This document shows positions 7,490-40,850 of a DNA stretch of 40,850 nt, in pieces. Every line of letters begins with the position of its first letter. Position 1 is the stretch's first letter. Made by a program: the position numbers and the translations under genes. This stretch comes from an uncultured Clostridia bacterium (lineage in GTDB: Bacteria; Bacillota; Clostridia; Lachnospirales; CAMVHY01): the NCBI GenBank assembly GCA_947073045.1, contig CAMTJU010000012.1, positions 1 through 40,850 of the forward strand. The letters run 5' to 3'. A model generated the notes under the pieces. That model searched no databases. It saw only the letters and a list, made by a program, of their open reading frames with translations, and was not told the origin of the DNA.

Positions 7490-8755
7490 TTAAACCAATT
7501 CGGCCAATTTTTCAACAGCTACATATATATCAGAAATTTTGTACCACGTTCCAAAATCAACAAGACCTGTCGATGGCAAATAAAATATTTGCTGAAAAGT
7601 TTGTACAGCTCTGCGCGTCATGTCTCCAAATATTCCATCAACTCTTAATTTTGGAATTGCGGGATAATTTCTGCTTATTGCCAGCAATTGATTTTGTATT
7701 GTACGTACGTCATTTCCTCGCGACCCAACTTGCAAAACTGTTCCTGGAAAAGACGATGGAACTCCAGAAACTTTTCTAGCTTGTTCAAGATAAATATCTT
7801 GCCCGTAATAATTGCGCAAAATATTTATTGCGTTATATCCTTGATCACCAAGATATTTTGAACCCCATTGCGACATCCAATTCGGACAACTTACTCTAAT
7901 TCCGTCACAATATTGAGCTAAAAGCGGCTGGCGTATTCCAAACTTCGTTATATAAGTATTAAACATTTCGTCTACTATAACCGATATTGATTTATAAATA
8001 TTTCTGCCATAAATAAAAGCGTGATCGTATGCTGTAGAAGAAGTAATCGTAAAATTATAACCTTTGTTTCTATACCATTCGGTAAACACGCGATTCAATG
8101 CAAACGAAATTATTGCAAGAACATTAGCACGAATAGTTGCGTCTGGCCAGGTTGAATAAATCTCGCTGCACGCAACATTTTTTATATAATCCTTAAACAA
8201 AATATAATAATTAGAAGCTGAAGTATCGCTTGGAACTCCATCATGCACTACTATATATTCTGGAATAACGACTTCATCTAAAACAATTTCACCAGTTGGA
8301 GGATTCAATGGCTTTACTGCATCCTCAGGAATTTTTGGATCATAATTACCCCACAAAGTATTCGGACCAATATTAATTACAATAGGTGCAGCATCTTGCG
8401 CTCCAGTTTCTGTATTTATCTGCTGCAATGCCATTGAGTTAGATAAAATTTGTGTTCCGTTAACATCTACATTCCTGTATCCTTGCATTTTTGTTTCTAT
8501 ATTGTATGTTGCATATGGTTTTACGCTTTGCTCCGATTCAAGTGAATATTCCTCAGGTGGCGCAGGTAAATTTATTATAGGCGTTTGGCCGGATTCATCC
8601 GTTATTAATTCCTCGACTATATCACCATTGTCATTTTTCACTGTAACCTGAACATTTGCAAGCGGCATTCCAATACTTATATCATTGACTTGAATCTGCA
8701 AACTACCTGTACTTTCTTGCATAGCATCAAAATATCTTTTGCTCAAATTTTGCAT
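7490..8755 (-). CDS. sleC: SleC-like spore cortex-lytic protein with SpoIID/LytB and peptidoglycan-binding domains
   Basis: 421 residues, close to clostridial SleC. The N-terminal part (about 15-180) is a carboxypeptidase-regulatory-like/prosequence region with no signal peptide. Residues about 185-330 form a SpoIID/LytB-type domain: VACSEIYSTWPDATIRANVL holds the expected catalytic glutamate, and SSTAYDHAF, QYCDGIRVSCPN and MSQWGSKYLGDQGYNAINIL follow. Residues about 340-400 are a PG_binding_1 repeat (VGSRGNDVRTIQNQL, VDGIFGDMTRRAVQTFQ). SleC is made as a precursor in the spore, activated by Csp proteases, and cleaves cortex peptidoglycan during germination. No csp gene is in view. A very strong GGAGGGG precedes the ATG. 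The gene could instead be a SleC relative with another sporulation role. Confidence 0.8.
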   Translation of the reverse strand: MQNLSKRYFDAMQESTGSLQIQVNDISIGMPLANVQVTVKNDNGDIVEELITDESGQTPIINLPAPPEEYSLESEQSVKPYATYNIETKMQGYRNVDVNGTQILSNSMALQQINTETGAQDAAPIVINIGPNTLWGNYDPKIPEDAVKPLNPPTGEIVLDEVVIPEYIVVHDGVPSDTSASNYYILFKDYIKNVACSEIYSTWPDATIRANVLAIISFALNRVFTEWYRNKGYNFTITSSTAYDHAFIYGRNIYKSISVIVDEMFNTYITKFGIRQPLLAQYCDGIRVSCPNWMSQWGSKYLGDQGYNAINILRNYYGQDIYLEQARKVSGVPSSFPGTVLQVGSRGNDVRTIQNQLLAISRNYPAIPKLRVDGIFGDMTRRAVQTFQQIFYLPSTGLVDFGTWYKISDIYVAVEKLAELV

Positions 8756-8849
8756 AATAAAACCCCTCCAAAAAAATGATATATAATTATTTATGTAAAA
8801 TAGAAAAAAAGCGTTACAAATTTATTTTGATAACAGGAGAAATTTTAAT

Positions 8850-9419
8850 ATGAAATGGCTTATAGATACCGATTCACCATTGTATAACATAATGAATTTT
8901 TTTGCAGATGTAATTATTTTTGCCCTTATATTTTTCTTGTGCAGTATACCTATATTTACAATCGGTGCTGCAAATTGTGCAATGTATTACTGTGCACAAA
9001 AAAGAATATTTGAAGAAAAAGCCAGTTTAAGAGATTTTTTTGGCGCATTTAGAAAAAATTTTATTATTGCCACATTAATCTGGATATGGACATTAATAAT
9101 ATTTTTTGCACTATTGATAATATGGATAAATTTCTCGCAAGTTTATGCTTTAATACCAATATTAATTTTTTTGCTGCTAGAATTAATTTTCACCTGCATA
9201 TACATTTTTCCAATAATAAATAGAAACTGCAAATCAATCAAACTTTCGTTAATAATTGCGCATAAACATTTGCCTACAACTCTACTATGTACAATAATTG
9301 CAGTCATAATAATGATAACATGCGCTTTTTATCCATTACTAATATTAATAAGCGGCGGATTGTATAATTTTTTAACAGCTTATTTTATAGAAAAAATTTT
9401 TCGAAATTATAAAATCTAA
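8850..9419 (+). CDS. YesL/DUF624 family integral membrane protein
   Basis: 189 residues with about five hydrophobic segments (near 20-40, 70-90, 95-120, 145-165 and 165-180). The N-terminal pattern of helix, cysteine and SIPIFTIGAANCAMYYCAQK matches the YesL family. Members are small membrane proteins of unknown mechanism, often near carbohydrate-uptake genes in Firmicutes, which is not the case here. It is divergent from the sleC-like gene across about 95 bases and stands alone, with two terminator hairpins downstream. A CAGGAGAAAT just before the ATG supports the start. Confidence 0.85.
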   Translation: MKWLIDTDSPLYNIMNFFADVIIFALIFFLCSIPIFTIGAANCAMYYCAQKRIFEEKASLRDFFGAFRKNFIIATLIWIWTLIIFFALLIIWINFSQVYALIPILIFLLLELIFTCIYIFPIINRNCKSIKLSLIIAHKHLPTTLLCTIIAVIIMITCAFYPLLILISGGLYNFLTAYFIEKIFRNYKI

Positions 9420-9509
9420 ACTCTGCTACATCTTGAAACAAGTAAAAAATACACGCTTCAAAAATACAAATTCAGTTAAAATTCCTTCTACATCAATATA
9501 AAAAAAATT

Positions 9510-9539
9510 ATTGGACAATAAAATATTTTTTCGTCCAAT
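9510..9539. terminator. Hairpin downstream of the YesL-family gene
   Basis: ATTGGAC and GTCCAAT form a 7-bp stem around a 16-base AT-rich loop that is itself partly palindromic. On the minus strand it is followed by AATTTTTTTT, and on the plus strand by an A/T tract. It could terminate the YesL-family gene or act as a second stop for transcripts from the giant gene. Confidence 0.5.
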
Positions 9540-9559
9540 AAAATAAATTTAGACAACAA

Positions 9560-9598
9560 AAAAGCCGTAAGATTACTAAAATCTTACGACTTTTTTTT
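9560..9598. terminator. Bidirectional terminator between the YesL-family gene and the giant gene
   Basis: CGTAAGATT (9566-9574) and AATCTTACG (9580-9588) form a perfect 9-bp stem with a 5-base loop. A-rich sequence lies on the left and eight T on the right, so it can stop transcription in both directions. It separates the two convergent genes. Confidence 0.88.
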
Positions 9599-9647
9599 AT
9601 TTAAATCATTTTTGGTAGTGAGCTGATTAGATGTAATATTAAGTTGT

Positions 9648-12600
9648 TTATTGAGCACGAGCTAATCTAGATCTTGATGCTCGAGAGTTTTGAAGTTCTT
9701 GACTATCCCGTAATCCCAAAATAACTTTACTACATAGATTTACATAATCATTTGATATAGCAATTGTACGTTTTTTATCAGATTCATCAAAGAAATTATT
9801 AATACCAGTATAAACAAAAATTGCGGTATTCAAACTATCAAGAAATTTTGGCAATGAAAGATTTACTTTTTTATTATCGTCTAAATACCACGAATACACC
9901 TTATTTGTACAAATAGAATGCACACAATATAATTTATCATACAAAAGAATATCATATTTTTTATCAACTTGATTAACATTATCTTCTGTAGACTGTTGAC
10001 TTTCTGCAGATTGATTAATAGTAGTATTTGTATTTTGATCTGTAGGTTGTGATAACTCTCCTTGATTATTATTATTTACTGTAGGCTGTTGAATTTCTGT
10101 AGAAGAATGAGGATCAGATTTTTTAAGCCACCCAATTTCAGCAAAATTATTACAATAACCTTCTATTACTTTTTTTAAATTACTTTCTAATAAATTCTTG
10201 CTTTCTGTATTTAGCTCAAAAATCGATAATAAAGGTGAAATAATTTCATATAATATTTCAGAAATATTTTTAGCATTCTTTGATTTGTATGGATCACAAA
10301 TAAATGATTGACAAATATTTAAAAATCCATTTTTACTTTTTTCTAAAAATTTTCTATCACTATAACACAAAAATGACTTATCTATAATTTGTTTCTTAGA
10401 TTGCCAATTACTCTCTATTTTCGTTTTTTCTTCACTTAAATTTTGGATTTTAATATTTAGATCTGAATTTTCATTTGAATCTTTTAAAAGAACGTTTTTA
10501 TTATCTAATTCATTTTGAATTGAATTTACTTTATTAGTATTAAGTAAACTAATTCTATTAACTAATACCTTTCTATATTCATTATAAAATGTTATATATT
10601 TTTCGCCATACATTGAAATGTCTTCAGTTTTATCTGATCTTGTACATTTAGAAAGAAACATACGATATGTCATGTAATCAAATAATTCCACAAACTCATT
10701 AATATTGTTATTAAATTCTGTATCAGAATTATTATTAATAGAATCAAAAATTAATTTAGCTAATAAATTAATAGAATTAGCTGGACAATTATTATCAATC
10801 TCAATATAAGAATTAATCTTAACATCGTTTTCTATATTCAATTTTAATTTTTCAAAAAGTTTACTTGAAGCCAATTGACTTTCAAAATATTTTAAACCTT
10901 TCAAGTTTTGAGAAATTGAATCAAGCCGAGTTAATTTGTCGTTTATATAACTATTTGAATGACTGAAACTATTATTTTTATTCATTGCCTCCATATCATT
11001 AAAATAAAGTTTAATATCTGTCAAAAAATCATTTTTTCTATAAACAGGAATTTCTATATTTCTTTTTTTACATAAATATCTTGCAATTAATGCAGTCTTA
11101 AATTTTATATCACTAATGTTAAATTTATCATTTTCAAATTTATTATTTTGGGAATCATAATATTGACTAAATAATTCCGTTAACATTTCAAATACTTTTC
11201 CAGGGTTATCTAATTCTTCATTCGAAAGTTGATTTAATCTCATATAAAGTGCATAAAAATTTTTCCATTCCTGATTATTATTTTTATCGCTAATTTTTGA
11301 AAAATCTACTGGAATACATGACTCCAATTTCAATTCTTTTAATACCTTACTTATTTCATAAAGATCTGCGAATACCTTCTTGCTATCTAAATTAACTGAC
11401 CTTAAAAGTTTTATTTTTTTATATTCTGGAGTATCTTGAATAAAAAAATTATTTTCATTTCCCATAGTAAAATTATCAATTACATTATTTATAATTTCGT
11501 TATTGGCCATATTATATGTGGCAACTATTTGATTGACCATACTGAAAATTTCGTCAACTGGAATATTTAATTCACTTGGATAGAGTTTGTTTAAAATATA
11601 CGAAGCATCTCTTAAAATAAGCAAACAATATATATTGTCTTTAAACAGACCGGCATTTAATAATATCTGTAAAAGATTTCTGTTTTCAGTGTTATCATTA
11701 TCAGCAAAAAGATTAAGCAAAACATTTGATATTTCTGGTTGATTTCCAAAAGAATCAGTTAATTTAAACAAAATATTTTCATATAAATTTTGTTCTGAAA
11801 TACCACTTGACAAAGAATAAACTGAAACAAAAAACTTAACTATATTTTCTATTTCAACTCTCATTGCCTTATATCTACTTTTATCAAAACGCTTTGTAAT
11901 AGAAAATTGTGTTTTTATATTCTCTATTCCATTATCAATTATTTTATTCATTTTTCTATAACTCATAGTATGGATATCTTTGTCTTCAGTAAATTGAATT
12001 GCGCTTAAAATTGCACAATGCAAACTTAAATTTTTAAAAAAATCACACTTACCGTATTCGTTACTTTTAACATGTTTAACTCCTACATCAGGCACACCTT
12101 TGGCAATGTCAAATAATTCTTTTATTTTTTCCTCAGATATAAAAATAAGACTATAAAGTTCAGGATATATAAAAGCTAATCTTTCAAAAACAAGTTTTAT
12201 AATTTTTGGACCTAGGTCAAAAATATTACGAATCCTCTCTGATGAATCCTTATAATTATTAAAAATTAGATTCATGACTAAGTTTGCAATCATTTGTTTG
12301 TTTTCCAATTTGATTGCTGCATCCATTCTTATACGCCAATTATTTGTAATTGGTAAATCTGTCTCAGTTATATCCAATAATCGCTCTAAAGCGTTACAAA
12401 TACGATTTATTTGTCTATAAGATAAATTGCCACCGGAAGTAAAATTAAAATATCTACAAACATATTTCATAAAATCTTCGCGCGAACCAAAAAAAGTTCT
12501 AGCAAAAAACAATTCAATTATAGTTTCACGAACACGTGCATTTTCATCACGGAAAAAAACATTAATATAATTATTAATCAATAACATATTTGGGCTCTGA

Positions 12601-24261: not shown

Positions 24262-24600
24262 GCAGTAAGTAAATTGAGTAGTCGCATATATGAAAATATA
24301 TGAGGAAAGTCCGAGCTCCATAGAGCAATGTGCCGGATAACGTCCGGTGAAGGCAACTTCAAGGCTAGTGCAACAGAAATAAACCGCCATTGAAAAATGG
24401 TAAGGGTGGAAAGGCGAGGTAAAAGCTCACCGCTTTGTTGGCAACAACTTAGGCTCTGTAAACCCCACATGGAGCAAGATTAAAAGTATATAAAAAGCTG
24501 CTCGCTTTACTTTTTATAATATCGCATGAATATATTGGCAACAATATATCAAGATAGATGACTACTCGCGACAGAACTCGGCTTATAGATTTGCTTATGC
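24262..24600 (+). ncRNA. rnpB: RNase P RNA, type A
   Basis: The catalytic RNA that removes 5' leaders from precursor tRNAs. The 5' universal block GAGGAAAGTCCGAGCTCC is followed by GTGCCGGATAACGTCCGG, ACAGAAATAAACCGCC, AAGGGTGGAAAGGCGAGGTA, AAACCCCACATGGAGCAAGA and the 3' block GACAGAACTCGGCTTATAGA, in canonical order. The ends GCAGTAAGTAAAT (24262-24274) and ATTTGCTTATGC (24589-24600) pair as helix P1 with one bulge and a G-U pair, defining the mature ends. The AACCCCACATGGAGCAAGA block and overall layout fit type A rather than the Bacillus type B. It lies between recO and dnaJ, with its own promoter and terminator. Confidence 0.97.
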
Positions 24601-24672
24601 AATAAAAATAAACACCACTTTTCTGAATTCACAATAAAAAATCAGAAAAATGGTGTTTTTTATTGCAATAAA
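24601..24672 (+). terminator. Long hairpin terminator after rnpB
   Basis: AACACCACTTTTCTGA (24611-24626) pairs with TCAGAAAAATGGTGTT (24642-24657) with one mismatch around a 15-base loop, followed by a T run. The outer sequences GCAATAAAAA and TTTTTATTGC extend the symmetry, making an arm unusually long for a terminator. Confidence 0.85.
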
Positions 24673-36470: not shown

Positions 36471-37365
36471 CAAAATCACCCAAAAGCATTCTTAAAGGTT
36501 TTAAAAAATTATCCTGGCGAATATATATACCGACTAAATTTTTTTGACAATCAAAAACCAATAATTTTTCATCAGCAAAAATTTTTTTATTGCCAGTTAC
36601 AAATTTCAAATCAATTTTGTTTCCATTATAAAGAAAATTATTTGCGTAATCATCAATAAATATTTTTTTAAACTCAAGTGCATTTTCAATCTTAATTATT
36701 TTTTCATCGGCCAAATTTTTATCAACAAGACTTTCAAATTCATCCAAAGTAATACTTTTGTCAATAGAAAATTGTCCACACTCAGTTCTAATTAAATCAA
36801 AAAGACATGCCCCACACCCTATTGCATTGCCAATATCATCACACAGAGAACGAATATAAGTTCCCTTCGAACATTTTACATCAATTACGATTTTATTTGG
36901 AAAAACAAAATTTACAAAATCAAGCTTAAAAATATTAACCAATCGTTTTTCACGTTCAATGTTAATTCCATCGCGCGCTAATTCATATAATTTTCTGCCG
37001 TTTTTTTTAATAGCAGAAAACATTGGCGGAATTTGATAATATTCTCCGCGAAATTTGTTTAATGTAGATAAAATTTCGTTATGATTATATATAAAATTTT
37101 TTTGTGACAAAATTTTGCCCGTTATATCTAAAGTATCAGTCGTTGTTCCCATTAACATTGTTGCAGTATAGCGTTTTGTTTGCGAGAGTATATATTGCGA
37201 AATTTTCGTTGCCTTCCCTATGCAAATTGGTAAAACTCCTGTTGCAATTGGGTCAAGCGTACCAGTATGCCCTACTCTTTTACCTAACATTTTTTTTATC
37301 TTATATACAACATCGTGCGAAGTAAAATTTTTCGCTTTGTTTATATTTATTATACCATCTCGCAT
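36454..37365 (-). CDS. truB: tRNA pseudouridine(55) synthase
   Basis: 303 residues. It makes pseudouridine 55 in the T loop of tRNAs. The catalytic motif GHTGTLDPIATGVLP holds the nucleophilic aspartate at residue 38; KATKISQYIL, KGTYIRSLCDDIG and the C-terminal PUA-like region (about 240-300) follow. Its start overlaps the end of nrnA by 16 bases, with AAAGGA as ribosome binding site inside the upstream gene, and its end overlaps ribF. In many Firmicutes truB and ribF also follow rbfA in the nusA-infB cluster; here that cluster is not upstream. Confidence 0.97.
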   Translation of the reverse strand: MRDGIININKAKNFTSHDVVYKIKKMLGKRVGHTGTLDPIATGVLPICIGKATKISQYILSQTKRYTATMLMGTTTDTLDITGKILSQKNFIYNHNEILSTLNKFRGEYYQIPPMFSAIKKNGRKLYELARDGINIEREKRLVNIFKLDFVNFVFPNKIVIDVKCSKGTYIRSLCDDIGNAIGCGACLFDLIRTECGQFSIDKSITLDEFESLVDKNLADEKIIKIENALEFKKIFIDDYANNFLYNGNKIDLKFVTGNKKIFADEKLLVFDCQKNLVGIYIRQDNFLKPLRMLLGDFDANSK

Positions 37366-38303
37366 TGTGAATTTTCCTTTATAATTTTTATTATTTTTTC
37401 TTTTGTCTCACGGATGTTTGCATTTATAATTCCGCCTGCAGCTAATTTATGACCACCACCGTTAAATTCTTTAGCTATTTTGTTTACATCCGTATAGTTT
37501 GAACGAAAGCTTAATTTACATGAGCCATCCTCATTTTCAATAATCATTACGGCAATTTCTATACCGTATATATTTTTAATAAAATCAACTAATCCACCCG
37601 TAAATTTGTTGCTGACACTATTTATTTGTTCAAATGTTAAAAAAGATATTGCTAAATGATACGGCTTTATTATTTCAAGATTGTTTATTACCATAGATAA
37701 ATATTTTATTTCGTCTACAGTTTTTTCCATCATTAATTCATTATATATGCGAGTAAATGGAAAATTAAATATAAGTAATTCTGAAACTATCTTATGTGTT
37801 TTAGAAGTAGTGCATGCATGGCGAAAGCCGCCCGTATCGGAAATTATTCCGGCATACAAAGCAGCTGCAATTTTTTCATCCATCAAATCCATTTTTTTTA
37901 TAAATTCATAAATTATTTCGCAAGTAGAAGATGCATTTGAGACGACATAATTATAATTAGCAAAATTGGTATTGCTAATATGATGGTCGATATTGATAGT
38001 GACTTTATTATCAATAATGTACTCAAATTTGCCGAGCCGATTTTCATTGCCACAATCTAAAATAATTACCAAATCAATTTTGTCTTTATCGACGTTATGT
38101 GAAATTTTTGAGGTAGAAATTAAATTAAATTTTTGATTGTAATCCTCAAACAAAATCTTAACACACAAATACGAAATTTTTTTTAATGCTGCTGCAAGCG
38201 CAAAAACAGCTCCTGCTGCATCACCATCAGGTTTTTTATGAGTCAGGAGCAAAATATTTTTATGATTTTTTATCAAACTTATTATTTCATTTTGAATTAA
38301 CAT
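37350..38303 (-). CDS. nrnA: DHH-family nanoRNase/pAp phosphatase NrnA
   Basis: 317 residues. It degrades 2-5 nt RNAs and dephosphorylates 3'-phosphoadenosine 5'-phosphate in Firmicutes that lack Orn. Visible metal-binding motifs include THKKPDGDAAGA, VIILDCGNENRLG and NIDHHISNTNFANYN in the DHH domain, and FNGGGHKLAAGG in the DHHA1 domain. NrnA also hydrolyses pGpG, the breakdown product of c-di-GMP, so it may link to the nearby diguanylate cyclase. The start overlaps rlmB by 17 bases with AAAGGA as ribosome binding site. Confidence 0.95.
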   Translation of the reverse strand: MLIQNEIISLIKNHKNILLLTHKKPDGDAAGAVFALAAALKKISYLCVKILFEDYNQKFNLISTSKISHNVDKDKIDLVIILDCGNENRLGKFEYIIDNKVTINIDHHISNTNFANYNYVVSNASSTCEIIYEFIKKMDLMDEKIAAALYAGIISDTGGFRHACTTSKTHKIVSELLIFNFPFTRIYNELMMEKTVDEIKYLSMVINNLEIIKPYHLAISFLTFEQINSVSNKFTGGLVDFIKNIYGIEIAVMIIENEDGSCKLSFRSNYTDVNKIAKEFNGGGHKLAAGGIINANIRETKEKIIKIIKENSQCEMV

Positions 38304-39048
38304 TTAAATTTCCTTTCATTGTTCTTTGGCGAACTATTTCATACATTAAGATACTGGCGGCAACAGATGCATTTAATGACTCAATTTTACCCGACATAGG
38401 TATTTTAGCTTTGAAGTCGGAATTTTGGGCAATAAGTTTTCCAACGCCAAATCCTTCACTTCCAACAATTAGAGCAGTCGGAATTTTAAAATCGAGATTG
38501 TACATAATCTCACCATTCATATCGGCACACGTTATCCATAATCCATTTTTTTTGAGTTTATCAATGGTATTAACAAGATTAGAAACTTTAGCAATTAATA
38601 CATGCTCGAGTGCACCTGCAGAAGTTTTGCTAACAATACCGGTCAAGCCAGAATTTCTGTGCTTAGGGATAATAATTCCGTGAACAGCGCAGCATTCTGC
38701 AGTTCTAATAATTGCGCCAAAATTTCTAGGATCCGAAATTTCATCCAAAATTAAAATGAATGGCTCTTCATTTTTACTTTTTGCATTTTCCAAAATATCT
38801 TCCACTGTACAATAATTTTTAGCTGGAGACAATGCTATTATACCTTGATGATTTTTAGATTGCGAAATGTAGTCCAGTTTATTTTTATTAACTTCCTGAA
38901 CGACAATACCAATTTTTTTTGCCTTAGCAACAATAGATTTCAATGAACCCTCGGCATATCCTTTCTTAATCATTATTTTATCAATTGCCTTGGAATTATT
39001 AAGAGCTTCCAAAACTGCATTTTTTCCTTCCAGTTGTAAGTTATCCAT
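38287..39048 (-). CDS. rlmB: 23S rRNA (guanosine-2'-O-) methyltransferase RlmB/TrmH family
   Basis: 253 residues from the ATG at 39048. A short N-terminal substrate-binding domain (LEGKNAVLEALNN, residues about 5-75) precedes the SPOUT domain with LDEISDPRNFGAIIRTAE, the S-adenosylmethionine-binding VGSEGFGVGKL and IPMSGKIESLNASVAASI, which form the trefoil knot. It likely methylates 23S rRNA or a tRNA. A frame open back to 39132 would add 28 untypical residues and begin only a few bases from a TATAAT box, so it is not used. The ribosome binding site (CAGGG) is weak. First gene of the overlapping operon. Confidence 0.93.
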   Translation of the reverse strand: MDNLQLEGKNAVLEALNNSKAIDKIMIKKGYAEGSLKSIVAKAKKIGIVVQEVNKNKLDYISQSKNHQGIIALSPAKNYCTVEDILENAKSKNEEPFILILDEISDPRNFGAIIRTAECCAVHGIIIPKHRNSGLTGIVSKTSAGALEHVLIAKVSNLVNTIDKLKKNGLWITCADMNGEIMYNLDFKIPTALIVGSEGFGVGKLIAQNSDFKAKIPMSGKIESLNASVAASILMYEIVRQRTMKGNLNVNSK

Positions 39049-39082
39049 TTTTTTACCCTGAAATATTTTATTATTATGTACG

Positions 39083-39112
39083 AAAAAAAACAAGCTATTT
39101 ATATTTAGCTTG
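39083..39112 (-). terminator. Terminator-like hairpin in front of rlmB
   Basis: CAAGCTA and TAGCTTG (39091-39097 with 39106-39112) form a 7-bp stem with an 8-base loop, followed on the minus strand by eight T. It lies between a TATAAT box (39137-39142) and rlmB, so it is either an attenuator of the rlmB operon or the end of an upstream or small transcript. Confidence 0.72.
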
Positions 39113-39136
39113 CTGATTAAGTATAAATTCATATGT

Positions 39137-39142
39137 ATTATA
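39137..39142 (-). promoter_or_regulatory. Possible -10 element of the rlmB operon
   Basis: A perfect TATAAT on the minus strand with only a weak TTTTCA-like -35 about 16 bases upstream. It would give a leader of about 80 bases containing the terminator-like hairpin. Confidence 0.45.
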
Positions 39143-39198
39143 AAATTAATCGAATAAATGAAAATTACTTATTCATTTTTCCACACACATGCACGTCT

Positions 39199-39217
39199 GA
39201 AATTTAAGCTAAATTTC
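39199..39217. repeat. Perfect 8-bp inverted repeat near the mobile-element junction
   Basis: GAAATTTA and TAAATTTC flank AGC. It lies about 20 bases on the chromosomal side of the composition change, in the 270-base gap between rlmB and the recombinase gene. It could be part of an attachment site or a chance AT-rich palindrome. Confidence 0.35.
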
Positions 39218-39276
39218 ATAAAAAACTCAAAAAAAAATCAAGGTTTGCGGTGATAAGGAAGTAATTTCAGATTAGG

Positions 39277-39307
39277 CGGTATAGCCCCGATTTCAAGGGC
39301 TGTACCG
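39277..39307. terminator. GC-rich hairpin at the end of the recombinase gene
   Basis: CGGTATAGCCC and GGGCTGTACCG form an 11-bp stem with one G-U pair and a 9-base loop, 14 bases after the recombinase stop. A short TCTTTT follows on the plus strand only. It may be a weak terminator or an element-end structure. Confidence 0.5.
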
Positions 39308-39320
39308 TCTTTTCGAGTTT

Positions 39321-40850
39321 CTATGCGCCTTGCCGTTTGGATTGCGTGGCAGAAAGGAAATTGATTTCCCCAACAAAGTTGAAAACAATATCCACTTTCT
39401 GTACCCGCTTCCCGTCCACCTTTTCCGGCGCATGGACTATGATTTTCTTGATAAATTCATTGACGATTGCTGGAGTGAGTTCCTTTATCCCAACATACTT
39501 ACGGATAATTGCGAAAAAGCTATCAAAGTCGCTCTTGCTCTGTTCGTAGGTATCGACTTCCTGCTGGTCTGCATTGACCTTTTCTTCCAGTTCCTGTTGT
39601 TCTGCTTCATACTCTGCGGACAGCTTCAAAAACCTGTCGTGGCTGATTGTGCCGCTGATGTCGTCCTCATAAATCCGCTTGAAGATACGGTCAAGTTCCG
39701 CTATCCGTTTCCTCGCCTGTCCGACTTCCCGCTTCCTGCGTTTCATTTCCTTTTCCGTTTCAGCAGAGCGTTGTGCGTACATCATTTCCTTAAATGCTAT
39801 GATGTCATCAAAGAAAAGGGCGGTCACGTCAAATATCCTGCTCCATACTATCTGCTTCAATACTTCCTCGCGGATAAAGTGCGCCGTACAGTTTCCCGTA
39901 TTGCTCTTGTACTTTGCACAGCGGTAATGGTCTTGTGAGCCGTTAAAACTCTTGCAAGTGGCGAAGTGTAATTTGCTCCCACAGTCGGCACAGTATACCA
40001 AGCCGGAGAATAGTCGCTGCCGATCTGCTTTTGTGGGGCGGCATTTGTTTGCCCTTAGTTCCTGTACCCGTTCAAATACAGCGTCCTCGACAATGGCTTC
40101 ATGGGTATTGTAGAAAATTGCCTGCTGTTCCTTTGTGGTAGGAATCCGCTTTTTCAGCTTGTGGGATTTGGAATAGCTTTTGAAGTTTACTGTATGCCCG
40201 CAGTAGTCCATACGCTCCAAAATACCAACAATGGTACTATCCCTCCAATCATAGGGATTTTCGGGAAATGGATTTCCTTTTTTCTTTGCATAGTAGGCTT
40301 TGGCAGTCAGCACTTTATCTTCCTTGAGGATTTTTGCTATCTGCATGGGACCTTTCCCGCCGATACATAAATCAAAAATCCGTTTCACCACAGCGGCGGC
40401 TTCTTCGTCCACAATCCATTGCTTTTTGTCCATAGGACTTACTATGTAACCGTAAGGCGGCTTTGTCAGATGTTCCCCCGCCTGTCCCTGCGCCCGTTTG
40501 ATTGCCCGTACCTTTTTGCTTGTGTCTTTGGCGTAAAAATCGTTAAACAGGTTGCGGAACGTGGTAAAATTGTTGTCGCCTTTTGCACTGTCTACACCAT
40601 CATTGATTGCGATATATCTAACGTCACGCTCCACGAAAAAGATTTCCGTATAGTAGCCGACTTTTAGATAATCACGTCCCAACCTTGACATATCCTTGAC
40701 AATGACCGTCGCCACGTTTCCCGCTTCAATCTCTGCAATCATACGGTTAAAATTTGGTCTGTCAAACGTCACACCCGATACACCGTCGTCAATGAAGAAA
40801 ACGGGATTGGAAAAGCCGTTGTCCGCCGCATATTTGGAGAGGACTGCTTT
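39321..40850 (-). CDS. Large serine recombinase, DUF4368 type, 5' end outside the window
   Basis: 509 residues are visible; the N-terminus with the catalytic serine lies beyond the window. The frame is open from the edge, so the GTG at 40772 is internal and not a start. Remaining parts of the resolvase domain include FIDDGVSGVTFDRPNF and KDMSRLGRDYLKVG. They are followed by the recombinase domain (KPPYGYIVSP...), a zinc ribbon with YCADCG and a downstream YRCAKYKSNTGNC, a coiled coil (residues rich in E, R and K) and a C-terminal DUF4368 domain. This layout is that of TndX/TnpX-like recombinases, which excise and insert conjugative or mobilisable transposons. Codons are G/C-ending far more often than in any neighbour, showing recent transfer. 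Confidence 0.93.
   Translation of the reverse strand, partial: KAVLSKYAADNGFSNPVFFIDDGVSGVTFDRPNFNRMIAEIEAGNVATVIVKDMSRLGRDYLKVGYYTEIFFVERDVRYIAINDGVDSAKGDNNFTTFRNLFNDFYAKDTSKKVRAIKRAQGQAGEHLTKPPYGYIVSPMDKKQWIVDEEAAAVVKRIFDLCIGGKGPMQIAKILKEDKVLTAKAYYAKKKGNPFPENPYDWRDSTIVGILERMDYCGHTVNFKSYSKSHKLKKRIPTTKEQQAIFYNTHEAIVEDAVFERVQELRANKCRPTKADRQRLFSGLVYCADCGSKLHFATCKSFNGSQDHYRCAKYKSNTGNCTAHFIREEVLKQIVWSRIFDVTALFFDDIIAFKEMMYAQRSAETEKEMKRRKREVGQARKRIAELDRIFKRIYEDDISGTISHDRFLKLSAEYEAEQQELEEKVNADQQEVDTYEQSKSDFDSFFAIIRKYVGIKELTPAIVNEFIKKIIVHAPEKVDGKRVQKVDIVFNFVGEINFLSATQSKRQGA

Follow-up and report, generated by a model that had tools for sequence, protein, structure and literature searches.

The window, the whole stretch of DNA analysed here, is the entire contig C12 of 40850 bp, from an AT-rich, small genome of 1.17 Mb in 36 contigs that is marked as 100% complete. 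It ends inside the gene of a large serine recombinase of the DUF4368 group (39321-40850, minus strand), which is cut by the contig end so that its first residues, where the catalytic serine region would lie, fall in an assembly gap beyond 40850 (about 280 bp between C12 and contig C5 of the same genome). The open reading frame (ORF) carries Resolvase, Recombinase, Zn_ribbon_recom and DUF4368 domains, all above the Pfam cut-offs, and is the one DUF4368 match in its own genome; a full-length relative is found at locus L003. A preliminary description of this DNA had placed a DUF4368-group recombinase at an element end, and both the domains and the position of the gene next to the right end bear this out. 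On the host side, the element is adjoined by the gene of an rlmB-like 23S rRNA methyltransferase (38287-39048, minus strand, start codon assumed), named on the basis of the preliminary description and the gene neighbourhood. An rlmB match is present in 36 of the 37 genomes searched, its own genome counted. Between rlmB and the element, on the rlmB strand, the second terminator-like hairpin of this region is visible by eye at 39083-39114 (CAAGCTA...TAGCTTG and a T-run) and is possibly a leader or attenuator. A bacterial class A RNase P RNA (24266-24601, plus strand, 285.9 bits) is the sole Rfam match in the window at gathering thresholds, and the last 11 kb of C5 has none.

The composition profile steps from a GC content of 0.300 at 37000-39237 to 0.461 at 39238-40850, and GC3 is 0.53 in the recombinase ORF compared with 0.19-0.25 in its five host neighbours rlmB, nrnA, truB, ribF and alaS. 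The sharp step reported earlier near 39.23 kb and the G/C-ending codons of the recombinase are therefore real, although the element side has 46% GC rather than "near 50%". The step coincides with the end of nucleotide similarity to relatives.

Boundaries, core and cargo of the element

Recombinase relatives number 176 in GTDB species genomes, and the best 80 of these form our locus set, which by titles belongs mostly to Lachnospiraceae, Oscillospiraceae and other gut Clostridia. The alignment to relatives ends at window 39230-39242 in 61 of these 80 loci. Among the other 19, seven extend a few to about 30 bases beyond (L021, L030, L031, L038, L053, L070, L077), three end at 39250 and nine end earlier, either at a contig end or as distant or partial relatives. 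DNA past the right end varies among hosts, except in groups with a common target. The junction upstream of rlmB had been proposed as an insertion site and is supported as such: it is here that the alignments end and that the terminal motif and core lie. We set the element edge at the core dinucleotide, 39239-39240. The closest DNA, about 88-93% identical, is in Lachnospiraceae, Oscillospiraceae and other gut Clostridia, which makes higher-GC gut Firmicutes the likely donor range, as previously suggested. Plasmid and phage sequences show no megablast match to window 38900-40850, and viral contigs contain one confirmed relative. Scaffold KE159795.1 holds three recombinase loci of the same family (L049, L050 and L065).

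The other end of the element and its cargo, which the preliminary description had proposed to look for, are both located on C5. DNA 5' of the recombinase in L002 matches C5:70670-71022, and as C5 is 71022 bases long this match ends together with the contig; in L002 coordinates 279 bases are absent between C5 and C12. The right terminal motif (39247-39263, minus strand) repeats the left one, at C5:64292-64308, in inverted orientation, and these two are exactly the matches to the motif in the genome with up to one mismatch. A right 10-nt arm, CCGCAAACCT on the minus strand (39241-39250), adjoins the core in the register of 30 paired ends. The element thus spans C5:64284-71022 (6739 bases), a gap of about 279 bases, and C12 from 40850 down to 39239 (1612 bases), or about 8.6 kb in all, with the C5-C12 join being the presumed connection. 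Among the best 80 of 176 recombinase loci the left end is within the fetched locus in 21, and left-end motifs occur in 23 of the 27 host genomes searched.

The core register, chosen after the ends were seen, places 10 nt between the core and the end of ACGG. In this register the same dinucleotide stands at both ends in 30 of 30 paired insertions, being TT in 28 and TG in two (L051 and the window); L052, which has a left motif without a right motif, was left unpaired. The core of the window's copy is TG at 39239-39240 (minus strand), with the same dinucleotide at C5:64284-64285, and seven right ends are of the TG type (L030, L032, L040, L051, L058, L062 and the window). A freely varying core, considered from the first flanks, was dropped in the light of the 30 paired ends. 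The GA core typical of TnpX and TndX had been expected at this junction, and GA is indeed common to the window's two ends within CTTGAT. It is missing in one of the seven TG-type right ends (L032), however, so a GA core is disfavoured and TG would appear to be the reading that keeps the family register.

The left part of the element on C5 encodes a D12 methylase (64424-65272), which matches PADLOC PD-Lambda-5_B with an E value of 1.6e-114, and an AAA ATPase (65305-66960) with weak PADLOC matches to several defence ATPases; among 25 of its 80 PADLOC matches listed there is no PD-Lambda-5 partner. PD-lambda-5 is a phage defence (PMC9519451), and this methylase and ATPase pair in the left cargo slot is likely a phage defence of the PD-lambda-5 type. 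Some elements carry, close to their left end, one or two copies of a repeat around GTTACGCAATAGAAC (L003 at 523 and 943; C5 at 67070), which seems to bound a cargo slot. To the right follow a sigma-70-region-4-like ORF below family cut-offs (67497-67955), two ORFs of 247 aa with MatE domains in Pfam (68242-68985 and 68997-69740), an AraC-type regulator of 159 aa (70048-70527) and an ORF of 118 aa without a Pfam match (70597-70953), next to which lies the recombinase. In an alternative numbering of this cargo as locus L118, 4424-6960 corresponds to C5:64424-66960 and 8242-10527 to C5:68242-70527. The methylase and ATPase pair has a host-like GC content of 0.30-0.32 compared with 0.42-0.43 for the sigma-like and AraC ORFs, a contrast from which the two cargo blocks probably differ in history. 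In relatives whose right-hand cargo is similar, the ORF at the MATE position is longer, with 465 aa in both L045 and L027 (342 and 363 aa in L062 and L067), and the regulator has 285 aa in L045, L062, L030 and L026 compared with 159 aa here; to judge from these lengths, the right-hand cargo (MATE, AraC) looks decayed in this genome. The seven ORFs of 100 aa or more called on C5 between the two ends contain nothing that Pfam assigns to a conjugation or relaxase family.

Insertion targets in the window and across the family

The window's insertion splits an intrinsic terminator, the right half of which, a stem end and T-tract, lies at 39229-39238 (minus strand) and the left half at about C5:64265-64283. 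When joined, the two host flanks read AAAAAAATCAAGC-TTA-GCTTGATTTTTTT, with a 13-bp stem and then more T, about 20 nt downstream of the stop codon of an SLH-domain gene on C5. The 63-nt joined site has a minimum free energy (MFE) of -13.4 kcal/mol with a z of -2.58 (4 of 200 shuffles are as good), and its terminator score is -11.5 under the relaxed rule described below. The fold of the joined hairpin is more stable than that of 27 of the 28 mismatched joins on one strand and of all 28 on the other, and the core is some 5 nt away from the apex of the hairpin. An empty copy of this site did not turn up among the relatives drawn, which include one genome of the same family, and there the region upstream of rlmB is by eye unlike the target.

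Close relatives are inserted at many sites: the 68 right ends among the best 80 of 176 loci occupy 51 distinct right-flank sites. Read separately, 52 right flanks and 29 left flanks give nearly the same half-site. Outward from the core it approximates G-N-N-TTT-N-C-GGG-N-TTTT, with mostly T at positions 4-6, C at 8, G at 9-11 and T at 13-16, and its palindrome has the shape of a bidirectional terminator. Matched-flank tests used 29 non-duplicate paired sites, from which L025 was dropped as its target is the same as that of L003; since some of these share one flank (for example L012 with L073, and L016 with L038), the 29 sites are not fully independent. The joined flanks have a mean MFE of -11.46 kcal/mol when matched compared with -7.84 ± 0.53 when permuted, and of -12.58 compared with -8.28 ± 0.54 on the opposite strand, with none of 20,000 permutations reaching the matched value in either case. 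Ungapped symmetry alone is weak (10.41 compared with 9.76 ± 0.24) and is reached by 101 of 20,000 permutations. Flanks of one insertion therefore pair beyond the consensus, which argues that many targets are real hairpins.

A hairpin with a T-tract scoring -10 or below is present at 11 of the 29 sites (L002, L003, L004, L015, L017, L021, L029, L041, L043, L051 and the window); the other 18 sites fall short of -10. Such hairpins occur in 73 of the 812 mismatched joins and in 24 of the 870 random windows taken from flanks. Noncoding positions reach this score in 66 of 1661 cases, and those at most 70 nt after a stop codon in 114 of 1622. These counts come from a rule that was relaxed after a stricter one had missed the window's site, and the relaxed rule was applied to sites and controls alike. 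The strict rule, with even hairpin lengths of at least 16 nt and an immediate T-run, gives 8 of 29 sites at -12 compared with 2 of 174 mismatched joins and 5 of 348 random windows. Lenient cut-offs do not separate matched from mismatched joins (16 of 29 and 471 of 812 at -2 or below; 15 of 29 and 381 of 812 at -4 or below), and random windows are lower than both (134 and 101 of 870, respectively), such that the consensus alone already yields weak terminator-like shapes. At -6 and below, matched sites exceed mismatched flanks. We read a large part of the actual targets as strong hairpins beyond the half-site shape. A search of 397 genomes from the family of G043 found the right motif in 8 and the left motif in 13 genomes, with two new pairs on the same contig; as their targets are the same as those of L004 and L017, this search is no independent replicate.

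The surroundings of the targets were surveyed at the 51 distinct right flanks, a set from which three loci whose core reads AA (L034, L035, L067) and nine that lack a right motif were left out. By naive ORF calls with a minimum length of 100 aa, the closest ORF has its end facing the element in 26 flanks, and in 10 it begins there and is read in the other direction; the junction lies inside an ORF in 8, the ORF is far in 5 and the flank is too short in 2. Among 23 loci scanned, tRNA genes stand just beyond the right end in L010 (Cys), L058 and L062 (Asn) and L059 (Arg), and just beyond the left end in L017 (Lys). The joined sites of L003 and L021 lie, by eye, at what we take to be the 3' end of a ribosomal-protein-S9-like gene, and the L003-type flank is common to 8 of 68 right ends. 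The L026/L036 group is presumably at the end of a lysS-like gene, identified from the protein tail; L036, the only member with both ends, is without a strong hairpin. Uninterrupted versions were found for both joined sites searched. That of L003, split in its own genome by about 7.2 kb, is whole in G094 (86% over bases 1-172 of 178; 81 genomes searched), where by eye one stem position is changed on both sides with pairing kept. That of L051 is whole elsewhere in the same genome (93% over 131 of 131 bases) and is also present in G159 at 81% (100 genomes searched).

Known systems, competing explanations and meaning

The multi-targeting clade of large serine recombinases described by Durrant et al. 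consists mostly of DUF4368 proteins and includes TndX-like enzymes (PMC10083194). The published members (PMC10083194; the MTI_2871 type of PMC13137831) share with the family studied here the domain set, many targets and T- and A-rich outer ends. One example has a TT core with T- and A-rich ends, and the clade is read as having relaxed specificity (PMC10083194); insertion by a TT-core member was close to random in Streptomyces, and such recombinases are presented as genome-writing tools in development that need little more than a TT core (PMC13137831). The TT core is also that of most relatives here, whereas the window's copy and six other right ends have TG, and TT is no requirement of the group given that published DUF4368 members have other cores too (PMC13137831). 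Unlike in these accounts, the targets are here read as bidirectional intrinsic terminators. The word "terminator" is absent from the main text of both papers and from the text available of the clostridial-element papers PMC3158075, PMC5704250 and PMC4430133, and appears in that of PMC3783163 once, as part of an assay. Within the literature searched on serine recombinases or integrases and terminators, covered as titles and abstract openings, none makes the link, and we did not find there that natural targets of DUF4368 recombinases are often terminators. A preference for hairpins such as gene terminators is known from group IIC introns, which are RNA-based retroelements with an unrelated enzyme and chemistry (PMC3898094).

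Our results suggest, with good though not full confidence, that the window ends in the right end of an integrated element of about 8.6 kb, present once in the genome and belonging to a DUF4368 family of cargo-carrying elements with a terminator-shaped attB, and that its target was a terminator now split in two. The preference of its clade relative TndX for Fic-domain genes in C. difficile (PMC4430133) and the nearly random insertion of the TT-core member in Streptomyces (PMC13137831) weigh against this reading. The recombinase would bind an attB motif with the form of a bidirectional terminator and synapse it with attP (right end, core and left end). Exchange would occur at the 2-bp core, in or near the loop, leaving the terminator halves on either side. 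The element would so land between transcription units, where terminators lie and where insertion should cost the host little. As no conjugation family is seen, transfer from cell to cell would need outside help.

The published reading of the multi-targeting group (PMC10083194, PMC13137831) offers the main alternative, in which the recombinase has only a relaxed specificity for A/T-rich sites whose core is TT or TG, and terminators stand out because selection removed the insertions made elsewhere. The 8 of 51 right flanks that begin inside naive ORFs and the 18 of 29 sites with no strong hairpin are consistent with it. However, the excess of strong hairpins persists against noncoding positions at most 70 nt after stop codons (11 of 29 compared with 114 of 1622) and against mismatched flanks at -6 and below, and the half-site has G at 10-11 and T at 13-16 at a fixed distance on both sides, which makes relaxed specificity on its own rather unlikely. 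The pairing of matched flanks beyond the consensus could instead mean that the recombinase or a partner recognises an extruded hairpin or a terminating transcription complex beyond the base sequence. This we regard as improbable, as the half-site sequence may suffice for binding and some used sites are without a hairpin.

The same domain group, the GA within CTTGAT and a sigma-like ORF might also point to a remnant of a Tn5397- or Tn4451-like transposon with a GA core. TndX (Tn5397) and TnpX (Tn4451) are large serine recombinases of the same clade with several targets and a 2-bp core (PMC10083194, PMC4430133, PMC3158075), and for TndX a central GA is reported, together with its preference for Fic-domain genes (PMC4430133). 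Tn5397 is a Tn916-like element of 21 kb, as opposed to the approximately 8.6 kb, TG core and lack of any transfer family seen here. With TT or TG at both ends in the family register, a TG-type right end without GA, and neither conjugation nor relaxase families among the seven element ORFs, such a remnant is very improbable. Even less credence is given to a misassembly in which a foreign contig was glued onto a low-GC host contig, a worry already raised in the preliminary description and in keeping with the sharp GC step and a contig end within a gene common to many gut genomes. The junctions at C5:64284-64285 and C12:39239-39240 are on two separate contigs at two inverted terminal motifs with the same core, which argues against a chimeric contig. 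The genome has exactly one left and one right motif, and the rejoined hairpin beats all but one of the 28 mismatched joins on one strand and every one on the other. The worry is largely answered, with the C5-C12 join remaining the inferred part.

More tentatively, and with slightly less than even confidence, the whole "promiscuous" serine recombinase clade may be a natural terminator-targeting system, its attB being the generic shape of a bidirectional intrinsic terminator. If this holds for the clade, almost every operon in any host would have a safe landing site beside it, which would explain both the spread across gut Clostridia and the multi-targeting. In the organism studied here, what is likely a phage-defence module came with the element into a genome that is small and AT-rich. 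For the family, a preference for terminators, if true, explains how such elements spread without breaking genes, makes their landing sites in new hosts predictable and provides a rule for choosing safe insertion sites, and a protein enzyme would join the mobile systems that target terminators.
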